Origin: Alphaproteobacteria bacterium
GTDB taxonomy: Bacteria > Pseudomonadota > Alphaproteobacteria > Rhodospirillales > Rhodospirillaceae
NCBI GenBank assembly: GCA_030604885.1
Contig: JAUVUZ010000005.1
Location: forward strand, 1 to 64,000
Direction of reading: 5' to 3'
DNA length: 64,000 nucleotides
In this document: positions 2,450-13,450 of the stretch, piece by piece
Layout of the letters: the number at the start of each line of letters is the position of its first letter
Numbering within the stretch: position 1 is the first letter of the stretch
Position numbers and translations under genes: made by a program
Notes under the pieces: model-generated
Told to the model about the DNA's origin: nothing
What the model saw: only the letters and a program-made list of their open reading frames with translations
Database searches by the model: none

Positions 2450-3063
2450 CAGAACTCCACCCCCGCCTGGGCTTTCACGCCCGCGCGGAAGGGGTGTTTG
2501 ACCATGGTCATTTCGGTGACGAGGTCGGCGGCCTCGACGAGGGCCTCGGGGGCGTTGCGGCCGGTGACGACGACGTGGAGGTCGGCGGGTCGGGCGGCGA
2601 GCGCGGCGAGGACGTCGGCGAGGTCGAGGTAGTCGTAGCGCAGGGCGATGTTGAGTTCGTCGAGGATCACCATGTCGAAGTCGCCCTCGGCGATCCAGGT
2701 TTTGGCGAGGCTCCAGGCGGCCCGGCAGGCGGCGACGTCGCGGGCGCGGTCCTGGGTTTCCCAGGTGAAGCCCTCGCCCATGATGCGGAAGTCGACTTGC
2801 TCGCCGAAGGATTCGAGGGCGCGGCGTTCGGCGGTGTCCCACGCGCCGGAGCCTTTGATGAACTGGAGGACGCCGACGCGCCCGCCGTGGCCGACGATCC
2901 GCAGCGCCATGCCCATGGCGGCGGTGGTCTTGCCCTTTCCGGCTCCGGTATGAACCATCAGCAGGCCTTTCTCGACCGTCTTGCCCGCCATCATGCGGTC
3001 GCGGGCGGCCTTGCGGGCCTTCATCTTTTCGGCGTGGCGGCGGTTGAGGTCGTCGTCGCTCAT
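2449..3063 (-). CDS. cobO: Cob(I)yrinic acid a,c-diamide adenosyltransferase
   Basis: CobO attaches the 5'-deoxyadenosyl group of ATP to the reduced cobalt of the corrinoid. The 204-residue protein has a charged N-terminal helix and a P-loop TGAGKGKTT at residues 39-47, followed by the family-typical LQFIKG and, near the middle, VILDEL of the Walker B region. The ATG at 3063 is chosen because it gives the normal family length and forms an ATGA overlap with the stop of the upstream cobP gene, implying coupled translation. It lies in the minus-strand series cobS - phosphatase - cobP - cobO. The stop codon abuts a palindromic repeat element that could end the transcript. Confidence 0.96.
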   Translation of the reverse strand: MSDDDLNRRHAEKMKARKAARDRMMAGKTVEKGLLMVHTGAGKGKTTAAMGMALRIVGHGGRVGVLQFIKGSGAWDTAERRALESFGEQVDFRIMGEGFTWETQDRARDVAACRAAWSLAKTWIAEGDFDMVILDELNIALRYDYLDLADVLAALAARPADLHVVVTGRNAPEALVEAADLVTEMTMVKHPFRAGVKAQAGVEF

Positions 3064-3605
3064 GGTTCGGCCTTCAGCGTCAGGGGCAGCCCGGCGGCGG
3101 TGAACACGACGCGCTGCGCGGCGGCGGCGACGCGCTGGTTGAGGCGCCCCTGCTCGTCGCGGAAGGCGCGGCCGAGCGGCGTTTCCGGCACCAGGCCGAG
3201 GCCCACTTCGTTGGAGACGCACACCACCGGCCCGGGGGCGCGGGCGAGGGCGGCGACGAGCTTTTCCGCCTGGGCGGCGGCGTCGCGCGCCTCCAGCATC
3301 TGGTTGGTGAGCCAGAGGGTGAGGCAATCGAGCAGGATCGGCCGCCCGGGCGGCAGGCCGGGCAGCAGCTCGGCCACCTCGAGCGGCTCCTCGACGGTTT
3401 CCCAGAGGTCGCCGCGGCGGGCGCGGTGGATGTCGATGCGCTCGCGCATTTCCGCGTCCCAGGCGCGGCCGGTGGCGAGGTAGAGGGCGCGCACGCCGGA
3501 TCGTTTCGCCTCCGCCGCGACCCACGCCTCGGCCAGCGTGCTCTTGCCCGAGCGCGCGCCGCCCAGCACCAGCGAGAGGGGCGGAAGCGGCCGGTCCTCA
3601 AACAT
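3060..3605 (-). CDS. cobP: Adenosylcobinamide kinase / adenosylcobinamide-phosphate guanylyltransferase
   Basis: This bifunctional enzyme phosphorylates adenosylcobinamide and then transfers GMP to give adenosylcobinamide-GDP, the substrate of CobS. The 181-residue protein carries the P-loop GGARSGKST at residues 15-23. The RIDIHRARR segment places His60 where CobU has its guanylylated histidine, followed by the expected WETVEEP. The start at 3605 leaves an 8-base overlap with the end of the phosphatase gene, and the stop overlaps the cobO start by four bases. Everything normal for the family is present. Confidence 0.95.
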   Translation of the reverse strand: MFEDRPLPPLSLVLGGARSGKSTLAEAWVAAEAKRSGVRALYLATGRAWDAEMRERIDIHRARRGDLWETVEEPLEVAELLPGLPPGRPILLDCLTLWLTNQMLEARDAAAQAEKLVAALARAPGPVVCVSNEVGLGLVPETPLGRAFRDEQGRLNQRVAAAAQRVVFTAAGLPLTLKAEP

Positions 3606-4263
3606 GGAGCACGTTCACCGCGCCGACGCGGGCGATGCCTTCGAGGTCGTCGAGGTAGTGGTCGATGCGGGTGATCGAGACGAAGTCGATGTCGAGCCGC
3701 TGGGCGTCGGCGTGGGGCAGGTTGAGGACGTTGGCGAGCTGGGCGCGGATGCTGCCCGCGTGGGCCACCGCCACCACGTCGCGCCCCGGGAACCGGGCGC
3801 TGATGCGCGCCACCGCCGCGCCGACCCGCGCCGCGTGGTCGAAGGTGTTCTCGCCGCCGCCCGCCGGGCGATAGGCGTAGGGATCGTTCCAGAACGCCTG
3901 GGGCGCGCCCGGCTCGGCGGCCTCGATCTCGTCCCAGGTGAGGCCTTCCCAGTTGCCGAAGTAGCGTTCCTCGAAGGCGGGTTCGGTGAGCACCGCGCCG
4001 GGGTCGAAGGCGAAGCCCTGGGCGGCGAGGGCCGCGAGGGTGAGGCGGGCGCGGGAGAGGCCGCTGGTGAGCACCACCGCGCCCTCGGGCAGGCGGCTGG
4101 CCTGGGCGGCGAACACCGTTTCGTCGGAGCAGTCGCACGCCACGTCGTGGCGGCCGTAGACGATCTTGCCCGCCACCGGCACCGGCGCGTGGCGCACCCA
4201 CCACCAGCGGGTCTTCACTCCGTTGAGCTTCACCGCAAGTCCCCTGCCCGTTGTCTTCGTCAT
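3598..4263 (-). CDS. cobC: Histidine phosphatase, probable alpha-ribazole-5'-phosphate phosphatase
   Basis: A 221-residue histidine-acid-phosphatase/phosphoglycerate-mutase-fold protein. The phospho-acceptor motif reads WWVRHAP (His25), a second conserved histidine lies in VAVAHAGSIRA, and a glutamate is present in the EERYFGNWEG segment. CobC-type enzymes remove the phosphate from alpha-ribazole-5'-phosphate or from the final cobamide phosphate. The role is assigned mainly by context: the gene sits between cobS and cobP and overlaps the cobS stop by four bases (ATGA). A general phosphatase role cannot be excluded from sequence alone. The ATG at 4263 is favoured by that overlap. Confidence 0.85.
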   Translation of the reverse strand: MTKTTGRGLAVKLNGVKTRWWWVRHAPVPVAGKIVYGRHDVACDCSDETVFAAQASRLPEGAVVLTSGLSRARLTLAALAAQGFAFDPGAVLTEPAFEERYFGNWEGLTWDEIEAAEPGAPQAFWNDPYAYRPAGGGENTFDHAARVGAAVARISARFPGRDVVAVAHAGSIRAQLANVLNLPHADAQRLDIDFVSITRIDHYLDDLEGIARVGAVNVLHV

Positions 4264-5063
4264 GACGGCGCGCGCAGCATCGCCACCAGAACCAGCACCA
4301 GGATGTCGACGGTCTGGGCGCCGCATCCGAGCACGTCGCCGGTATAGCCGCCGATGTGGCGTTTGGCCAGAGCCGCCAGCCCGGCGACCCCGGCGAGGGC
4401 GACGAAAAACGCCAGGAACCCCTGCCCCGGCCCGAGGGCGACGAGGGCGATCAGCAGCCCCAGCAGCACCGCCGCCCAGGTGGAGCCTTCGGTGGGATAG
4501 CCGGAGGACGCGGCGACGCCGTCGGAGCGGGCGGAGAAGTTGAGGGTCATCGACACCGGAATCAGCCCGCGCCCCAGCGCCCCCGCCGCGATCATCGCCG
4601 CCAGCGCGTCGAGCGGCGCCAGCGTGCCGACCGCGACGACGCGGATCAGCAGGCTCAGCACCAGCCCGGTGGCGCCGTAGGTGCCGAGCAGCGAGTCGCG
4701 CATGATTTCCATCTTGCGCTCGCGCTCGTAGCCGCCGCCGAAGCCGTCGCACACGTCGGCGAAGCCGTCCTCGTGCAGGGCGCCGGTGATCGCCACCGTC
4801 GCCGCGATGGCGAGGGCGCCCGCCAGCGCGTGGGGCGCGCCCAGGGTGGCGGCGAGCAGGAACGCCAGCCCGCCCAGCCCGCCGATCAGCGCCCCCGCCA
4901 CCGGAAACGTGCGCATCGCGGTGGCGAGCGGCTGGGTGCGCGCGGCGTTGCCCGCGGGCAACGGAATCCGGGTGAGAAAAATCATCGCGTACAGCAGGTC
5001 GTCCAGCCACGCGGCAAGGCCGGAGGCGGACGGAGGCGGCGCGGACGGGGTGGATCCGGACAT
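4260..5063 (-). CDS. cobS: Adenosylcobinamide-GDP ribazoletransferase (cobalamin synthase)
   Basis: CobS is an inner-membrane enzyme that joins adenosylcobinamide-GDP to alpha-ribazole (or its phosphate), completing the nucleotide loop. The 267-residue protein is strongly hydrophobic with about six to seven membrane segments. The signature acidic motif HEDGFADVCDG lies at residues 97-107, followed by GGGYERERKMEIMRDS, typical of the family. It is the first gene of the minus-strand cobalamin group and is divergent from the first cobT gene, with only 69 bases between the two starts. Confidence 0.95.
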   Translation of the reverse strand: MSGSTPSAPPPSASGLAAWLDDLLYAMIFLTRIPLPAGNAARTQPLATAMRTFPVAGALIGGLGGLAFLLAATLGAPHALAGALAIAATVAITGALHEDGFADVCDGFGGGYERERKMEIMRDSLLGTYGATGLVLSLLIRVVAVGTLAPLDALAAMIAAGALGRGLIPVSMTLNFSARSDGVAASSGYPTEGSTWAAVLLGLLIALVALGPGQGFLAFFVALAGVAGLAALAKRHIGGYTGDVLGCGAQTVDILVLVLVAMLRAPS

Positions 5064-5132: not shown

Positions 5133-6167
5133 ATGGTGAAGGCCCTGATCGTCTCATCTCTGGACGACGTGCGCGCCCTGGTCGCGGCCATGCCCGGCCC
5201 CGACACCGCCGCCGCCGAAGCCGCCCGCACCCGCGAGGCCAACCTCACCAAGCCCCCCGGGTCCCTCGGCCGGATCGAGGAATTCGCGGAATGGCTCTCC
5301 GCCTGGCAGGGCCACCACCCGCCGGAGATGCGCCACCCCCGTGCCGCGGTGTTCTGCGCCAACCACGGCGTCGCGCGGCTCGGCGTCTCCGCCTATCCCA
5401 TGGAAGTGACGGCGCAGATGCACGCCAACTATGTGGCGGGCGGCGCGGGCTTCAACGCCATGTGCAAGGCGATGGACGTGCCCTACGACATCCACGCCAT
5501 CGAGATCGACACCCCCACCGCCGACTTCACCGAAGGCCCGGCGATGACCGAGGCCGAACTGGTGGCGGCGCTCGCCGTGGGCCTGCGCGCGGTGCCCGAG
5601 GGCGCCAGCGTGTTCTGCCCCGGCGAAATGGGCATCGGCAACACCGCCGCCGCCGCCGCGCTGCTGTGCGCGCTCCACGGCGGCAGCGCCGAGGACTGGA
5701 CCGGCGCCGGATCGGGCGTCTCGGGGGCCGACCTCGCGCGCAAGATCGAGGTGGTGCGCCAGGGCGTGGCGCTGCACGCCGCCGAGGCCGCCGACCCGCT
5801 CGACCTGCTCCGCCGCCTCGGCGGGCGCGAGCTGGCGGCGATGACCGGCGCGATCCTCGCGGCGCGGCACCTGCGGGTGCCGGTGCTGATCGACGGCTTC
5901 CTCTGCTCCGCCGCCGCCGCGGTGCTGGCGGCGATGCGGCCCGACGCCCTCGACCACTGCCGCTTCTCCCACGCCTCCGCCGAGCCGGGCCACGCCCTCT
6001 TGATGCAGAAGCTCGACGCCAAGCCGATCCTCCACCTCGACATGCGCCTGGGCGAGGCCACCGGCGCGGTGCTCGCCTCGGGCATCCTGCGCACCGCGGT
6101 GGCCGTCCACACCGAGCTTCTCACCTTCGAGGAAGCCCGCGTCACCCGCAATCATCCGGTGTCCTGA
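5133..6167 (+). CDS. cobT: Nicotinate-nucleotide:base phosphoribosyltransferase, CobT family, copy 1
   Basis: CobT transfers phosphoribose from nicotinate mononucleotide to the lower-ligand base (usually 5,6-dimethylbenzimidazole) to make alpha-ribazole-5'-phosphate. The 344-residue protein holds the family blocks NHGV (78-80 region), GEMGIGNT (164-171) and DMRLGEATGA with the probable catalytic glutamate at residue 308. Two differences from the usual family text are visible: NTA instead of NTT after GIG, and PMEVT where many CobTs have PQEVT, near the base-binding pocket. The ATG at 5133 follows a good GGAAGG site. A second cobT paralogue of equal length follows after a single base, so the two are surely co-expressed. 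Confidence 0.93.
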   Translation: MVKALIVSSLDDVRALVAAMPGPDTAAAEAARTREANLTKPPGSLGRIEEFAEWLSAWQGHHPPEMRHPRAAVFCANHGVARLGVSAYPMEVTAQMHANYVAGGAGFNAMCKAMDVPYDIHAIEIDTPTADFTEGPAMTEAELVAALAVGLRAVPEGASVFCPGEMGIGNTAAAAALLCALHGGSAEDWTGAGSGVSGADLARKIEVVRQGVALHAAEAADPLDLLRRLGGRELAAMTGAILAARHLRVPVLIDGFLCSAAAAVLAAMRPDALDHCRFSHASAEPGHALLMQKLDAKPILHLDMRLGEATGAVLASGILRTAVAVHTELLTFEEARVTRNHPVS

Positions 6168-6168
6168 G

Positions 6169-7203
6169 ATGCTGAAGATTTCCGCTCCGCAGATCGACTC
6201 CCTCGACCACCTGCGCCATATCCTGCGCAACCTGCCGGGGCCGGATACCGCCGCCCGCGACGCCGCCCTCGCCCGCGAGCCGCTGCTCACCAAGCCCCGC
6301 GGCGCCCTCGGCCGCCTGGAGGAACTCGCCGCCTGGCTCGCCGCCTGGCAGGGCCGCCACCCGCCGGTGATGGACCGCCCGGCCGCCGCCACCTTCGCCG
6401 GCAACCACGGGGTGATGAAGCACCGCGTCTCGCCCTGCCCGGTCGAGGTCACCTGGCAGCAGTCGAAAAACTTCGCCGAGGGCGGCGGCTCGATCAACGC
6501 CTTCTGCCGCTCCACCGGCACCGAACACAAAACCTACGACATCGCCATCGACAGCTTCACCCGCGACTTCCTCGAAGGCCCGGCGATGGACGAGGACGAC
6601 TTCGTCGCCGCCTTCAACGTCGGCATGGCGGCGGTCGAGGCCGGAATGAGCGTGTTCTGCCCCGGCGAAATGGGCATCGGCAACACCACCCCCGCCTCCG
6701 CCATGGCGATGGCGATCTACGGCGGCACCGCCGAACAGTGGACCGGCTACGGCGCGGGCGCGGTCGGCCCGATCATGGAACGCAAAATCCGCGTCGTCGC
6801 CGAAGGCGTCGCCAAACACACCGCCGATTCGCCCGACGCGGTGGAAATCGCCCGACGCCTCGGCGGCCGCGAACTCGCGGCGATGGCGGGCGCCACCCTC
6901 TCCGGCCGCCTCCAGCGCGTCCCGGTGCTGCTCGACGGCTTCCCCTGCACCGCCTCGGCGGTGTTCCTCGAAGCCTTCCAGCCCGGCGCCCTCGACCACT
7001 GCCGCATCTCCCACGCCTCCGCCGAAGTGGGCCACGGCATGCTCACCGAACGCCTCGCCCAACGCCCGCTGCTCCACCTCGGCATGCGCCTGGGCGAAGG
7101 CACCGGCGCCGTGCTCGCCGTCCACCTGCTGCGCGCCGCCGTCACCTGCCACGCCGACATGGCCACCTTCGACGAAGCCGCCGTCGCCCGCGCCGAGCGG
7201 TGA
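6169..7203 (+). CDS. Nicotinate-nucleotide:base phosphoribosyltransferase, CobT family, copy 2
   Basis: A second full-length CobT-family protein (344 residues) directly downstream of the first. It has GNHGV, GEMGIGNTT (167-174) and GMRLGEGTGA with the general-base glutamate retained at residue 310, so it looks catalytically competent. The base-pocket segment reads VSPCPVEVT, different both from its neighbour and from the usual PQEVT text. The two copies are clearly divergent rather than a recent duplication. Tandem CobT homologues can act as a heterodimer on unusual bases (the ArsA/ArsB pair of Sporomusa, which attaches phenolics); whether that applies here is inference. It is the last gene before a hairpin element with a strong terminator. 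Confidence 0.9.
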   Translation: MLKISAPQIDSLDHLRHILRNLPGPDTAARDAALAREPLLTKPRGALGRLEELAAWLAAWQGRHPPVMDRPAAATFAGNHGVMKHRVSPCPVEVTWQQSKNFAEGGGSINAFCRSTGTEHKTYDIAIDSFTRDFLEGPAMDEDDFVAAFNVGMAAVEAGMSVFCPGEMGIGNTTPASAMAMAIYGGTAEQWTGYGAGAVGPIMERKIRVVAEGVAKHTADSPDAVEIARRLGGRELAAMAGATLSGRLQRVPVLLDGFPCTASAVFLEAFQPGALDHCRISHASAEVGHGMLTERLAQRPLLHLGMRLGEGTGAVLAVHLLRAAVTCHADMATFDEAAVARAER

Positions 7204-7210
7204 GGGAAGG

Positions 7211-7372
7211 CCAGGGGCGCTGCCCCTGGGACCCCGCCGGGGGGTCTCGGACCCCCCGGACCCCGCGCTCACTTCAAAGGAAAAGGGCCTCCCGAACGGA
7301 GGCCCTTTTCCTTTGGAAACGAATGGGATCCAAGGGCCCAAGGCCCTTGGCGGGTCCAGGGCGGAGCCCTGG
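7211..7372. repeat. Palindromic modular hairpin element, copy 2
   Basis: Fills the gap between the convergent cobT copy 2 and J-domain genes. Left to right: stem 1 (CCAGGGGC-GCTG hairpin, 7211-7229), linker ACCCCG, stem 2 (CCGGGGGGTC paired with GACCCCCCGG), a central terminator-like hairpin at 7275-7315, then the second half reading inward from the right end as CCAGGGC-TCC-GCCCTGG, linker ACCCGC, and CCAAGGGCC paired with GGCCCTTGG. The right half is nearly identical to that of the copy at 30352-30512. Confidence 0.85.
7275..7315. terminator. Bidirectional rho-independent terminator in element copy 2
   Basis: Perfect 18-base arms (7275-7292 and 7298-7315) with the stem core GGGCCTCC/GGAGGCCC, flanking A- and T-tracts, and a five-base loop CGAAC at 7293-7297. 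The T-tracts on both strands suit it to end transcription from both cobT copy 2 and the convergent J-domain gene. Confidence 0.75.
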
Positions 7373-7379
7373 CCTGCCC

Positions 7380-8084
7380 TCACCCGCCCCGGCGCAGGAG
7401 GTCGAGGGCGGCGTTGAGTTGGCTCATGCGGTCGTGGCTGCCGGTGGGGCTATCGGGGTGGTGGACGGTGGCGAGGGTGCGAAAGCGGGAGCGGACCGTT
7501 GCGAACGCGGGTTTGACGTTGGGGGGGAAGCCGAGGACGTGGAGGGCGTCCTCGCGACTGCGGATGCCGCCCGGCAGGGGGGTGAAGGCGAGGGTGGCGA
7601 CGGTGGCGCGGAGGCGTTGGATTTCGGCTTCGGCCTGGGCGAGGCGGGCGTGGGCCTCGGCGACGGCGGCGTCCTGGACGGCGGGGGCGCGGGGCGGCTC
7701 GGGCGGTCGTTTCGGGTCGATGGCGAGGTCGAGGCGGCCGTCGGCGAGGGCGAGGGCGAGGCCGAGAGCGCGGCGGATGCGGTCCGGATTCGAGCCGTCC
7801 GCCATGCGGATTTGCAACCTTGGCTTGCGGCGCCAGGGTCGCCCGGCGGCGGGGCCGGATTTGAGGATCACGGTTTCCCGGTCGGCCGCGCCCGGTTCGC
7901 CGGGGTCGGGGGCCGCGTCCACCGCCTCGGCGGGCAGCATCAGCAGGATCGAGCGTGCGAGGTCGGCGGCGTTGACGCCGCGCGCCCGCGCGAGGGCCGT
8001 CACCGCGTCGCGGAACCACGCGGCGCAGGGCACGGTGTAGGAAACCTTGGAAGCCAATCGGAGTCCCCCGGATCGTCGCGGCAT
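7380..8084 (-). CDS. J-domain-containing protein of unknown role
   Basis: A 234-residue protein with three visible parts. Residues about 12-55 (VSYTVPCAAWFRDAV and on) look like a small helical, possibly ribbon-helix-helix-like segment. Residues 60-120 are a basic linker. Residues about 140-232 hold a coiled-coil-like helix (AEAHARLAQAEAEIQRLR) and a C-terminal J-like domain: a helix with FATVRSRFRTLATVHHPD, containing the HPD tripeptide that stimulates Hsp70 ATPase, then SQLNAALDLL. The N-terminal similarity is weak. An alternative TTG start at 8057 has a better GGGGGA ribosome-binding site than the ATG at 8084. No partner is evident among the neighbours. Confidence 0.7.
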   Translation of the reverse strand: MPRRSGGLRLASKVSYTVPCAAWFRDAVTALARARGVNAADLARSILLMLPAEAVDAAPDPGEPGAADRETVILKSGPAAGRPWRRKPRLQIRMADGSNPDRIRRALGLALALADGRLDLAIDPKRPPEPPRAPAVQDAAVAEAHARLAQAEAEIQRLRATVATLAFTPLPGGIRSREDALHVLGFPPNVKPAFATVRSRFRTLATVHHPDSPTGSHDRMSQLNAALDLLRRGG

Positions 8085-10997: not shown

Positions 10998-11016
10998 CAA
11001 GGAGCGAACCCACACG

Positions 11017-11451
11017 ATGACTCATACCATTCAAGTCTGCATCCGCTGCAACTTCACCAAGACCGCCGAGGAAAAGGACGGCAAGCGGGGCGGCGCCGAG
11101 CTTTACGAGCGCCTGATGAAGAAATTCGCGGCCTGGCCCCTGCGCGACCGCTTCGCGGTGGAGCAGACCCGCTGCATGGGCGCGTGCGGCACCGCCTGCG
11201 TGGTGGCGTTCCAGGCGCCGGGCAAGGTGAGCTGGGTGTTCGGCAGCCTCAACCCACGCTTCGCGATCGCGAGCCTGCTGGAATTCGCCGAGAAATATTA
11301 CGCGGACGCCAAGGGAATGGTCGCCTACGCCGACCGCCCGCCGGACATGGCGGCGGGGCTGCTGGCGCGCCTGCACCCGGTGGGGTCGGCGCCCTCGAAG
11401 GCGGCGGCGGTGGCCGCCGGGCTGGAACCCGGCGGCGACTGCGGCACCTGA
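11017..11451 (+). CDS. DUF1636 protein, cobalamin-associated metal-binding candidate
   Basis: A 144-residue protein that starts with a thioredoxin-like-ferredoxin pattern: VCIRCNFT near the N-terminus and RCMGACGTAC around residues 53-62, giving a set of cysteines suited to a [2Fe-2S] cluster or another metal. DUF1636 genes are commonly found near cobalamin genes or cobW-type genes. Function is unknown. The ATG at 11017 follows AAGGAG at good spacing. Its stop codon abuts the cobA stop with no base between them (convergent), so the two transcripts must run into each other unless other controls exist. Confidence 0.75.
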   Translation: MTHTIQVCIRCNFTKTAEEKDGKRGGAELYERLMKKFAAWPLRDRFAVEQTRCMGACGTACVVAFQAPGKVSWVFGSLNPRFAIASLLEFAEKYYADAKGMVAYADRPPDMAAGLLARLHPVGSAPSKAAAVAAGLEPGGDCGT

Positions 11452-12370: not shown

Positions 12371-13450
12371 ATGGGCGAAGCGGACAAACCCCTGCGCAGC
12401 GGCTGGACCACCGGCGCCTGCGCGGCGGCGGCGGCGAAGGCGGCCTACCTCGCCCTGGCGGGCGACGGCTTCCCCGACCCGGTCGAGATCGTGCTGCCGC
12501 GCGGCGAGCGGCCGCGCTTCGCCCTCTCCACCCGCACCGTCGACGGCGACTCCGCCACCGCCGGGGTGATCAAGGACGGCGGCGACGACCCCGACGTCAC
12601 CCACGGCGCCGAGGTGCTCGCCACCGTGCGCATCGCCGCACCCGGCAGCGGCATCTCGTTCAAGGGCGGGCCGGGGGTCGGCATCGTCACCCGGCCGGGA
12701 ATCCCGGTGCCGATCGGCGAACCGGCGATCAACCCCGGGCCGCGCCGCATCGTCTCCGCCAACCTGCTCGCCGCCGCCGACGCCATCGGCGGCCCCACCG
12801 ACGTGGAAGTGACGATTTCGATTCCGAAAGGAATCGAGCTGGCGGACAAGACCCTCAACCCGCGCCTCGGCATCGTCGGCGGCATCTCGGTGCTCGGCAC
12901 CACCGGGGTGGTGGTGCCCTATTCCTGCGCCGCGTTCATCCAGACCATCCAGCGCGCCGTGCAGGTGGCCGCCGCCTCGGGCGCCACGCACATCGCCGCC
13001 TCCACCGGCTTCGCCTCCGAGCGGGCGGCGCGGCGGGTCCACGGCCTGCCCGACGTCGCCCTGATCGACATGGGCGACTTCGTCGGCGGGCTGCTGAAAT
13101 ACCTGCGCGCCCACCCCTTGCCGCGCCTCACCCTGGCGGGCGGCTTCGCCAAGTTCGTCAAACTGGGGGAGGGCGAACTCAACGTCCACTCGAAGGAATC
13201 CCGCGTCGACTTCGACGCCCTCGCCGAGCTGGTGCGCGAGATCGGCGGCGACGACGCCCTGGTCGCCGCCACCCGCGCCGCCAACACCGCCATCGAGGTG
13301 CTGGAACGCGCCCAGGCCGCCGGGCTGCCCCTCGGCGACGCGGTCGCCGCCCGCTGCCTCGCCGTGGCGCGCGGCATCGTCAAGCCGGAAACCGCCGTGG
13401 ACGTGCTGCTGGTTAACCGCTCCGGCGAGGTGGTCGGCCGTGCCGCGTGA
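12371..13450 (+). CDS. cbiD: Cobalt-precorrin-5B C(1)-methyltransferase
   Basis: CbiD performs C-1 methylation during ring contraction. The family belongs to the early-cobalt-insertion (anaerobic) branch. The 359-residue protein begins with the signature LRSGWTTGACAAAAAKAA, and contains GPGVGIVTRPG and a C-terminal EVLERA-type helix. It is divergent from cobA across 91 bases and overlaps the cobK start by 11 bases, forming a two-gene unit. Finding CbiD rather than the aerobic CobF suggests the organism makes its corrin ring by the cobalt-early route, but the cobaltochelatase genes that would settle this are not in the window. Confidence 0.94.
   Translation: MGEADKPLRSGWTTGACAAAAAKAAYLALAGDGFPDPVEIVLPRGERPRFALSTRTVDGDSATAGVIKDGGDDPDVTHGAEVLATVRIAAPGSGISFKGGPGVGIVTRPGIPVPIGEPAINPGPRRIVSANLLAAADAIGGPTDVEVTISIPKGIELADKTLNPRLGIVGGISVLGTTGVVVPYSCAAFIQTIQRAVQVAAASGATHIAASTGFASERAARRVHGLPDVALIDMGDFVGGLLKYLRAHPLPRLTLAGGFAKFVKLGEGELNVHSKESRVDFDALAELVREIGGDDALVAATRAANTAIEVLERAQAAGLPLGDAVAARCLAVARGIVKPETAVDVLLVNRSGEVVGRAA

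Follow-up and report, generated by a model that had tools for sequence, protein, structure and literature searches.

Tandem CobT paralogues in the genus Oleispirillum, one with an altered base pocket

Two genes for CobT, the enzyme that readies the lower base of vitamin B12, lie side by side in the genus Oleispirillum and are here called T1 and T2; in T2 the two hydrophobic residues at the positions reported to govern the choice of lower-ligand base have been replaced by Cys and Gln. As these are the two residues reported to bear on use of the B12 base versus adenine, T2 may yield a B12 of a second type. On the reading that we prefer, T1 would activate 5,6-dimethylbenzimidazole (DMB) and T2 would be repolarised for purines, most simply adenine; judged from the sequences, this reading as a whole is as probable as its negation.

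Two adjacent, full-length CobT genes

The pair was analysed in a window of 64,000 nucleotides (the whole stretch of DNA under analysis), at the following positions:

5133..6167, + strand: T1, CobT with an ordinary pocket (open reading frame of 344 aa; TIGR03160 and PF02277 matches; alignment)
6165..6169, + strand: junction of T1 stop, one base and T2 start (sequence)
6169..7203, + strand: T2, CobT with an altered base pocket (open reading frame of 344 aa; TIGR03160 and PF02277 matches; alignment)

Both proteins pass the CobT family cut-offs, with 367.4 bits for T1 and 346.6 bits for T2 against TIGR03160 (NCBIfam; cut-off 319.3), and 374.9 and 353.1 bits, respectively, against PF02277 (cut-off 22.6). 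The host genome has no other PF02277 match. Pairwise alignment gives 55% identity across 338 aa, and so 45% difference. The open reading frames and family scores bear out the first-pass annotation of this DNA, which had described two full-length adjacent CobT genes, and the T1 stop and the T2 ATG are indeed separated by a single base. The RLGE and GEMGIGNT blocks that it had listed are present in both proteins, as are the differences between PMEVT (T1) and PVEVT (T2) and between NTA and NTT. Across the seven genomes with a full pair, the gap between the genes is 1–11 bases, taking the first ATG as the T2 start.

Origin and distribution of the pair

The Oleispirillum genus comprises spiral alphaproteobacteria; among its members are Oleispirillum naphthae Y-M2 and several metagenome assemblies. 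The full adjacent pair was found in seven of the eight genomes examined; the eighth is 74% complete, and its contig breaks off within T1. Elsewhere in the family, the remaining 65 genomes have at most one CobT, except for one with two contig-edge pieces. Wider surveys took in the order (225 genomes), the class (290) and the phylum (299); these overlap, and the class and phylum sets are drawn samples. All 55 genomes outside the genus that had at least two CobT matches across the three surveys were re-searched, and no other tandem pair was found among them in this sampling of Pseudomonadota. Full-length CobT copies on one contig were never nearer than ~47 kb in these 55 genomes, and the remaining copies were on different contigs or were pieces of one gene. 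A plasmid search gave 130 records, 40 of them listed, all below 60% identity to T2. No title on a cobT pair of the Oleispirillum type appeared among the matches listed in a search of the open-access literature for second or paralogous cobT.

A maximum-likelihood tree of 104 rows (the partial T1 of genome G026 was excluded from the tree and from the counts) placed the seven T1 rows in one clade and the seven T2 rows in another (bootstrap/SH-aLRT 100/100 for each). The two clades are sisters (100/99; 99 in a quick tree) and lie amid alphaproteobacterial CobTs. ArsA and ArsB have very long branches among enteric and other reference chains, where their exact place is unsure, and they lie apart from T1 and T2. 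Because T1 and T2 each form a clade across seven genomes, as sisters, the duplication predates the radiation of the genus. Tree and gene order together show that an ancestral alphaproteobacterial CobT was duplicated in tandem on the stem lineage of Oleispirillum. There was no sign of gene conversion between T1 and T2 in the tree, and we rejected both recent duplication and gene conversion, as the copies cluster by type across the seven genomes.

The first-pass annotation had proposed a phylogeny as a check on its idea of a widened or changed lower-ligand choice, against which a position of both copies within ordinary CobTs was to count as one half of the case, the other half being cells with dimethylbenzimidazolyl cobamide only. 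In the phylogenetic half, that is the position found, since T1 and T2 are sisters among ordinary alphaproteobacterial CobTs. T2 is not thereby ordinary.

T2 differs at two reported selectivity positions

Ser80 and Gln88 of the Salmonella enzyme are reported, in the available part of PMC4657239, to contact adenine and to govern use of adenine versus DMB. The S80F and Q88M mutants show lower adenine use, and Q88M raises DMB use; the same part of that source gives F/M at 80/88 for the CobTs of S. meliloti and P. denitrificans (PMC4657239). The corresponding codons, assigned by alignment, are:

5394..5396, + strand: T1 Tyr88, at the position of Salmonella Ser80
5418..5420, + strand: T1 Met96, at the position of Salmonella Gln88
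6436..6438, + strand: T2 Cys90, at the position of Salmonella Ser80
6460..6462, + strand: T2 Gln98, at the position of Salmonella Gln88

Aligned with Salmonella positions 80/88/175/317, T1 has Y88, M96, M166 and the catalytic E308 (Y/M/M/E), and T2 has C90, Q98, M168 and the catalytic E310 (C/Q/M/E). The paralogues thus do differ near the pocket, as had been noted on first reading, but the change from PMEVT to PVEVT is not itself at a reported selectivity position. Those positions are the residue immediately before this motif (Y88/C90) and the residue eight further on (M96/Q98).

Both T2 residues are invariant across the genus (Cys at 80 and Gln at 88, each in 7/7), while T1 has Tyr (6/7) or Phe (1/7) at 80 and Met (7/7) at 88; the partial T1 of G026, outside these counts, has Y and M. 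In a background of 155 CobTs, position 80 was Y in 77, F in 69, A in seven, W in one and S in one, and position 88 was M in 154 and Q in one, an enteric-like row with S/Q/L. This background includes two identical rows (L056 and L090). It excludes five reference chains and the aberrant or distant rows L076, L077, L079, L117 and L118 (M, K, Y, R and R at position 88), and probably under-samples enteric-type CobTs, as it also excludes matches in three more genomes from the family of the Gln88 row. One of these excluded rows, L118 (G250:C1:1134090-1135350), has Ser at the position of the catalytic Glu, and its genome has a distant, normal second copy (L119).

The C/Q of T2, against a near-universal Y/F and M in the sampled Pseudomonadota, lends support to the earlier suggestion of a changed lower-ligand choice, though not to the ArsAB-like, phenolic mechanism that came with it. 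Columns that are fixed in T2 and present at ≤1% in the background number 11 of 313, and positions 80 and 88 are both among them. Under random placement the chance of this is 0.0011, or ~1 in 900, a rough figure as columns are not independent. T1 has seven such columns of the 313, and neither 80 nor 88 is included. With nine further rare columns fixed in T2, the changes at 80 and 88 are not the only ones in this protein.

Gln88 requires two origins on the tree, one in T2 and one in the enteric chains (character states were entered by hand from the alignment). The correlation of BluB with residues 80 and 88 gave no useful signal in 70 non-alphaproteobacterial genomes (the 30 best-scoring and 40 picked from the matches listed), of which one had Gln88. 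Met88 was still present in 28 of the 29 genomes read without a BluB match; therefore Gln88 is not needed for life without DMB synthesis. Neither Gln88 nor Cys80 occurred in any of 20 second CobTs read from other genomes, several of which had other odd pockets. The second CobTs L197–L209 of Pseudomonadota, which are far from the first copy, have, for example, M/L/I, H/M/I or R/A/L at 80/88/175, and in some of them GKS or GKT replaces the GNT motif; Glu317 is retained in 12 of the 13. These may be base-specialised CobTs or have other functions.

Both copies are conserved

Glu317 and Glu174 (Salmonella numbering), the roles of which in Salmonella CobT are described in the available part of PMC9561151, are present in all seven T1 and all seven T2 proteins, and the aligned Lys213 and Asp263 are retained in all 14 rows. 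As both chains retain the catalytic Glu and the other listed active-site residues, neither has the look of a helper subunit. Both genes are open in all seven full pairs, and the codon-model omega is 0.090 for T1 and 0.056 for T2 (seven rows each), which rejects a pseudogene reading. Values for comparison genes were 0.068 for cobS (six rows), 0.112 for cobU (six) and 0.051 for cobQ (five). Simple pairwise ratios against the window's copies were higher than in the codon model (0.21–0.45 for T1, 0.18–0.30 for T2), and all were below 1. Identity to orthologues is 80–94% for T2 and 73–91% for T1. T2 is thus under purifying selection and is the more conserved copy, with T1 evolving faster.

An AlphaFold model of T2 alone had a mean pLDDT of 93.9. 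Its best match among solved folds was Salmonella CobT (Z ~43, 31% identity in the fold alignment), followed by the Yersinia and Thermus CobTs (Z 42 to 41) and then by ArsA chains (Z ~38).

Gene neighbourhood and lower-ligand supply

T1 and T2 run in the same direction as a short unit, with cobS divergent from it, among other genes of corrin synthesis:

3060..3605, − strand: cobU/cobP, adenosylcobinamide kinase/guanylyltransferase (NF004469, 191.9 bits against a cut-off of 161)
3598..4347 as searched, start approximate, − strand: alpha-ribazole phosphatase-like, cobC-like (TIGR03162, 96 bits, below the cut-off of 162.9; synteny)
4260..5063, − strand: cobS, adenosylcobinamide-GDP ribazoletransferase, the divergent neighbour (PF02654, 148.3 bits, above cut-off; TIGR00317, 102.8 bits, below the cut-off of 110)
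12377..13450 (searched as 12377-13447, start approximate), + strand: cbiD, cobalt-precorrin-5B methyltransferase (TIGR00312, 389.9 bits against a cut-off of 200)

Beyond cobS, the cobC-like gene and cobU are cobO- and cobQ-like genes, named by eye, and the order cobS, cobC, cobU, cobO, cobQ is kept across the genus as far as the contigs extend. Genes for uroporphyrinogen-III methyltransferase, cbiD and cobK lie 4–7 kb downstream of the pair. For riboswitch control of the pair, Rfam was searched at the gathering threshold and nothing matched in the window, despite the corrin genes there; six cobalamin riboswitches were found by Rfam elsewhere in the host genome. By eye, G+C-rich stretches with inverted symmetry lie 3′ of T2 (7204-7380), and a small cysteine-containing, DUF1636-like protein (11000-11451, + strand) adjoins the uroporphyrinogen methyltransferase gene. 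A DUF1636 gene is also found at a cobT match on a Sphingopyxis plasmid.

BluB was above cut-off in all eight genomes of the genus, so DMB should be obtainable at least in air. A second, weak BluB-like protein, under the BluB cut-off, is also present in all eight (G000:C16:14218-14661 and equivalents). Anaerobic benzimidazole genes were rejected as a reason for T2, as no ThiC-like bza gene matched above the TIGR04386 cut-off in the eight genomes; all 14 control genomes also failed this cut-off, so the search has no positive control. One of the eight has a second ThiC-like gene under the cut-off (G027:C1:3915999-3917192). A profile search found no CobG match in the host genome, and across the genus CobG was above cut-off in one genome with a weaker match in another. 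O. naphthae is microaerophilic, according to the available part of PMC10963914, and BluB acts under aerobic conditions, according to that of PMC4850488. Given cbiD, no CobG match, a microaerophilic habit and an aerobic BluB, it is plausible that the host makes the corrin without oxygen and DMB solely with it. The words cobalamin and B12 were not found in the available part of the Oleispirillum paper (PMC10963914).

A proposed division of labour, and alternatives

What could a duplicated CobT with an altered pocket be for? T1 keeps the hydrophobic base pocket and, from its residues and the presence of BluB, is likely to be the DMB enzyme, activating BluB-made DMB for cobalamin. T2 would activate a base of greater polarity, for which adenine or another purine is the simplest candidate; that its base range has shifted in this direction is, on its residues, about an even bet. 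A purinyl cobamide could then be completed via T2 when oxygen is too scarce for the oxygen-dependent BluB. We also entertain, with appreciable doubt, that the pair is a genus-wide and probably co-translated switch of lower ligand by oxygen within a single transcription unit, T1 serving cobalamin and T2 a purinyl cobamide, possibly with mixed-pocket heterodimers. Several observations count against the division of labour between a DMB and a purine enzyme. At 80 and 175, T2 carries Cys and Met in place of the Ser and Leu of Salmonella CobT, BluB is universal in the genus, Met88 is the rule in the non-alphaproteobacterial genomes read without a BluB match, T2 has nine other rare columns, and altered pockets are also found in second CobTs of other bacteria. 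The faster evolution of T1 would fit T2 being the main enzyme as well.

Both chains contribute to the base pocket in Salmonella CobT, according to the available part of PMC9561151, and a T1:T2 heterodimer could therefore be a second route to the same end. T1 and T2 would then form an obligate or preferred ArsAB-like assembly, with two unlike two-chain pockets setting a new specificity. The short gaps in all seven full pairs favour co-translation, although simple co-regulation also fits them, and reports of adjacent cobT genes are otherwise nearly confined to the arsAB of Negativicutes (PMC6461909, available part). With active-site residues intact in both chains and no close kinship of either to ArsA or ArsB, we regard such an assembly as rather unlikely. 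We give slightly less credence still to T1 and T2 both being ordinary DMB CobTs, retained for reasons of gene dosage or expression, with the T2 changes irrelevant to the base. Their family scores, their nesting among ordinary CobTs and the universal BluB all agree with this. It does not readily explain why all seven T2 proteins have C80 and Q88 when these residues are almost absent elsewhere, nor why the paralogues have diverged so far, clustering by type without evident gene conversion.

Aromatic compounds are plentiful in oil sludge. That T2 activates a non-purine base, such as a benzimidazole with a hydroxyl or another polar group, or a phenolic, would suit a pocket changed towards polar and a genus for which oil sludge is one habitat (PMC10963914, available part). 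We consider it very improbable, as the TIGR04386 search, with the lack of a positive control noted above, found nothing above cut-off in the genus, and the engineered Salmonella CobT crystallised with p-cresol is S80Y/Q88M/L175M (titles of 4kqj and 4kqk), which is the pattern of T1 and not of T2. If T2 is purine-directed, it puts the two-residue rule for lower ligands to a natural and independent test, with its sister T1 as a built-in control, and would be a case of one genome with separate enzymes for two cobamides.

Comparison with known systems

As a marker for arsAB, Shelton and colleagues took the presence of two cobT genes next to each other; they found arsAB in 27 species, nearly all of them Negativicutes (PMC6461909, available part). 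The Oleispirillum pair breaks the rule by which adjacent cobT genes mark ArsAB and phenolyl cobamides (PMC6461909), and as it is not ArsAB by descent, the marker would give a doubtful prediction here. The genes are adjacent, as in ArsAB of Sporomusa ovata, but have neither the kinship of ArsAB nor the features of ArsB, and we therefore assign both to CobT, with T2 as a variant. The first-pass analogy with ArsAB, and with it a phenolic reading of the pair, is rejected on grounds of both descent and residues: T1 and T2 form sister clades, neither ArsA nor ArsB groups with either of them, and T2 lacks the degenerate features of ArsB. ArsB has Q/R at 80/88 and GEMGLGG at the NT motif, whereas T2 has C/Q and GEMGIGNT. 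The Y/M/M of ArsA is common to T1 and many other CobTs.

The closest likeness in descent is to the alphaproteobacterial CobT/CobU (TIGR03160, NaMN:DMB phosphoribosyltransferase), with which both copies share the catalytic Glu, length and position in the tree, and T1 also the Y/F-M pocket; the Oleispirillum genus differs in having two tandem copies, with C/Q at 80/88 in T2. CobT of Salmonella enterica shares Gln88 with T2, and the T2 Cys is a small residue that could stand for Ser80; T2 nevertheless has Cys for Ser80 and Met for Leu175, and its Gln88 has a separate origin. The BluB/CobT2 of Propionibacterium freudenreichii recalls T2 in its name, CobT2, and in that its use of DMB versus adenine has been discussed by residues 80 and 88, but it is a fusion protein with hydrophobic F/V at these positions (PMC4657239, available part).
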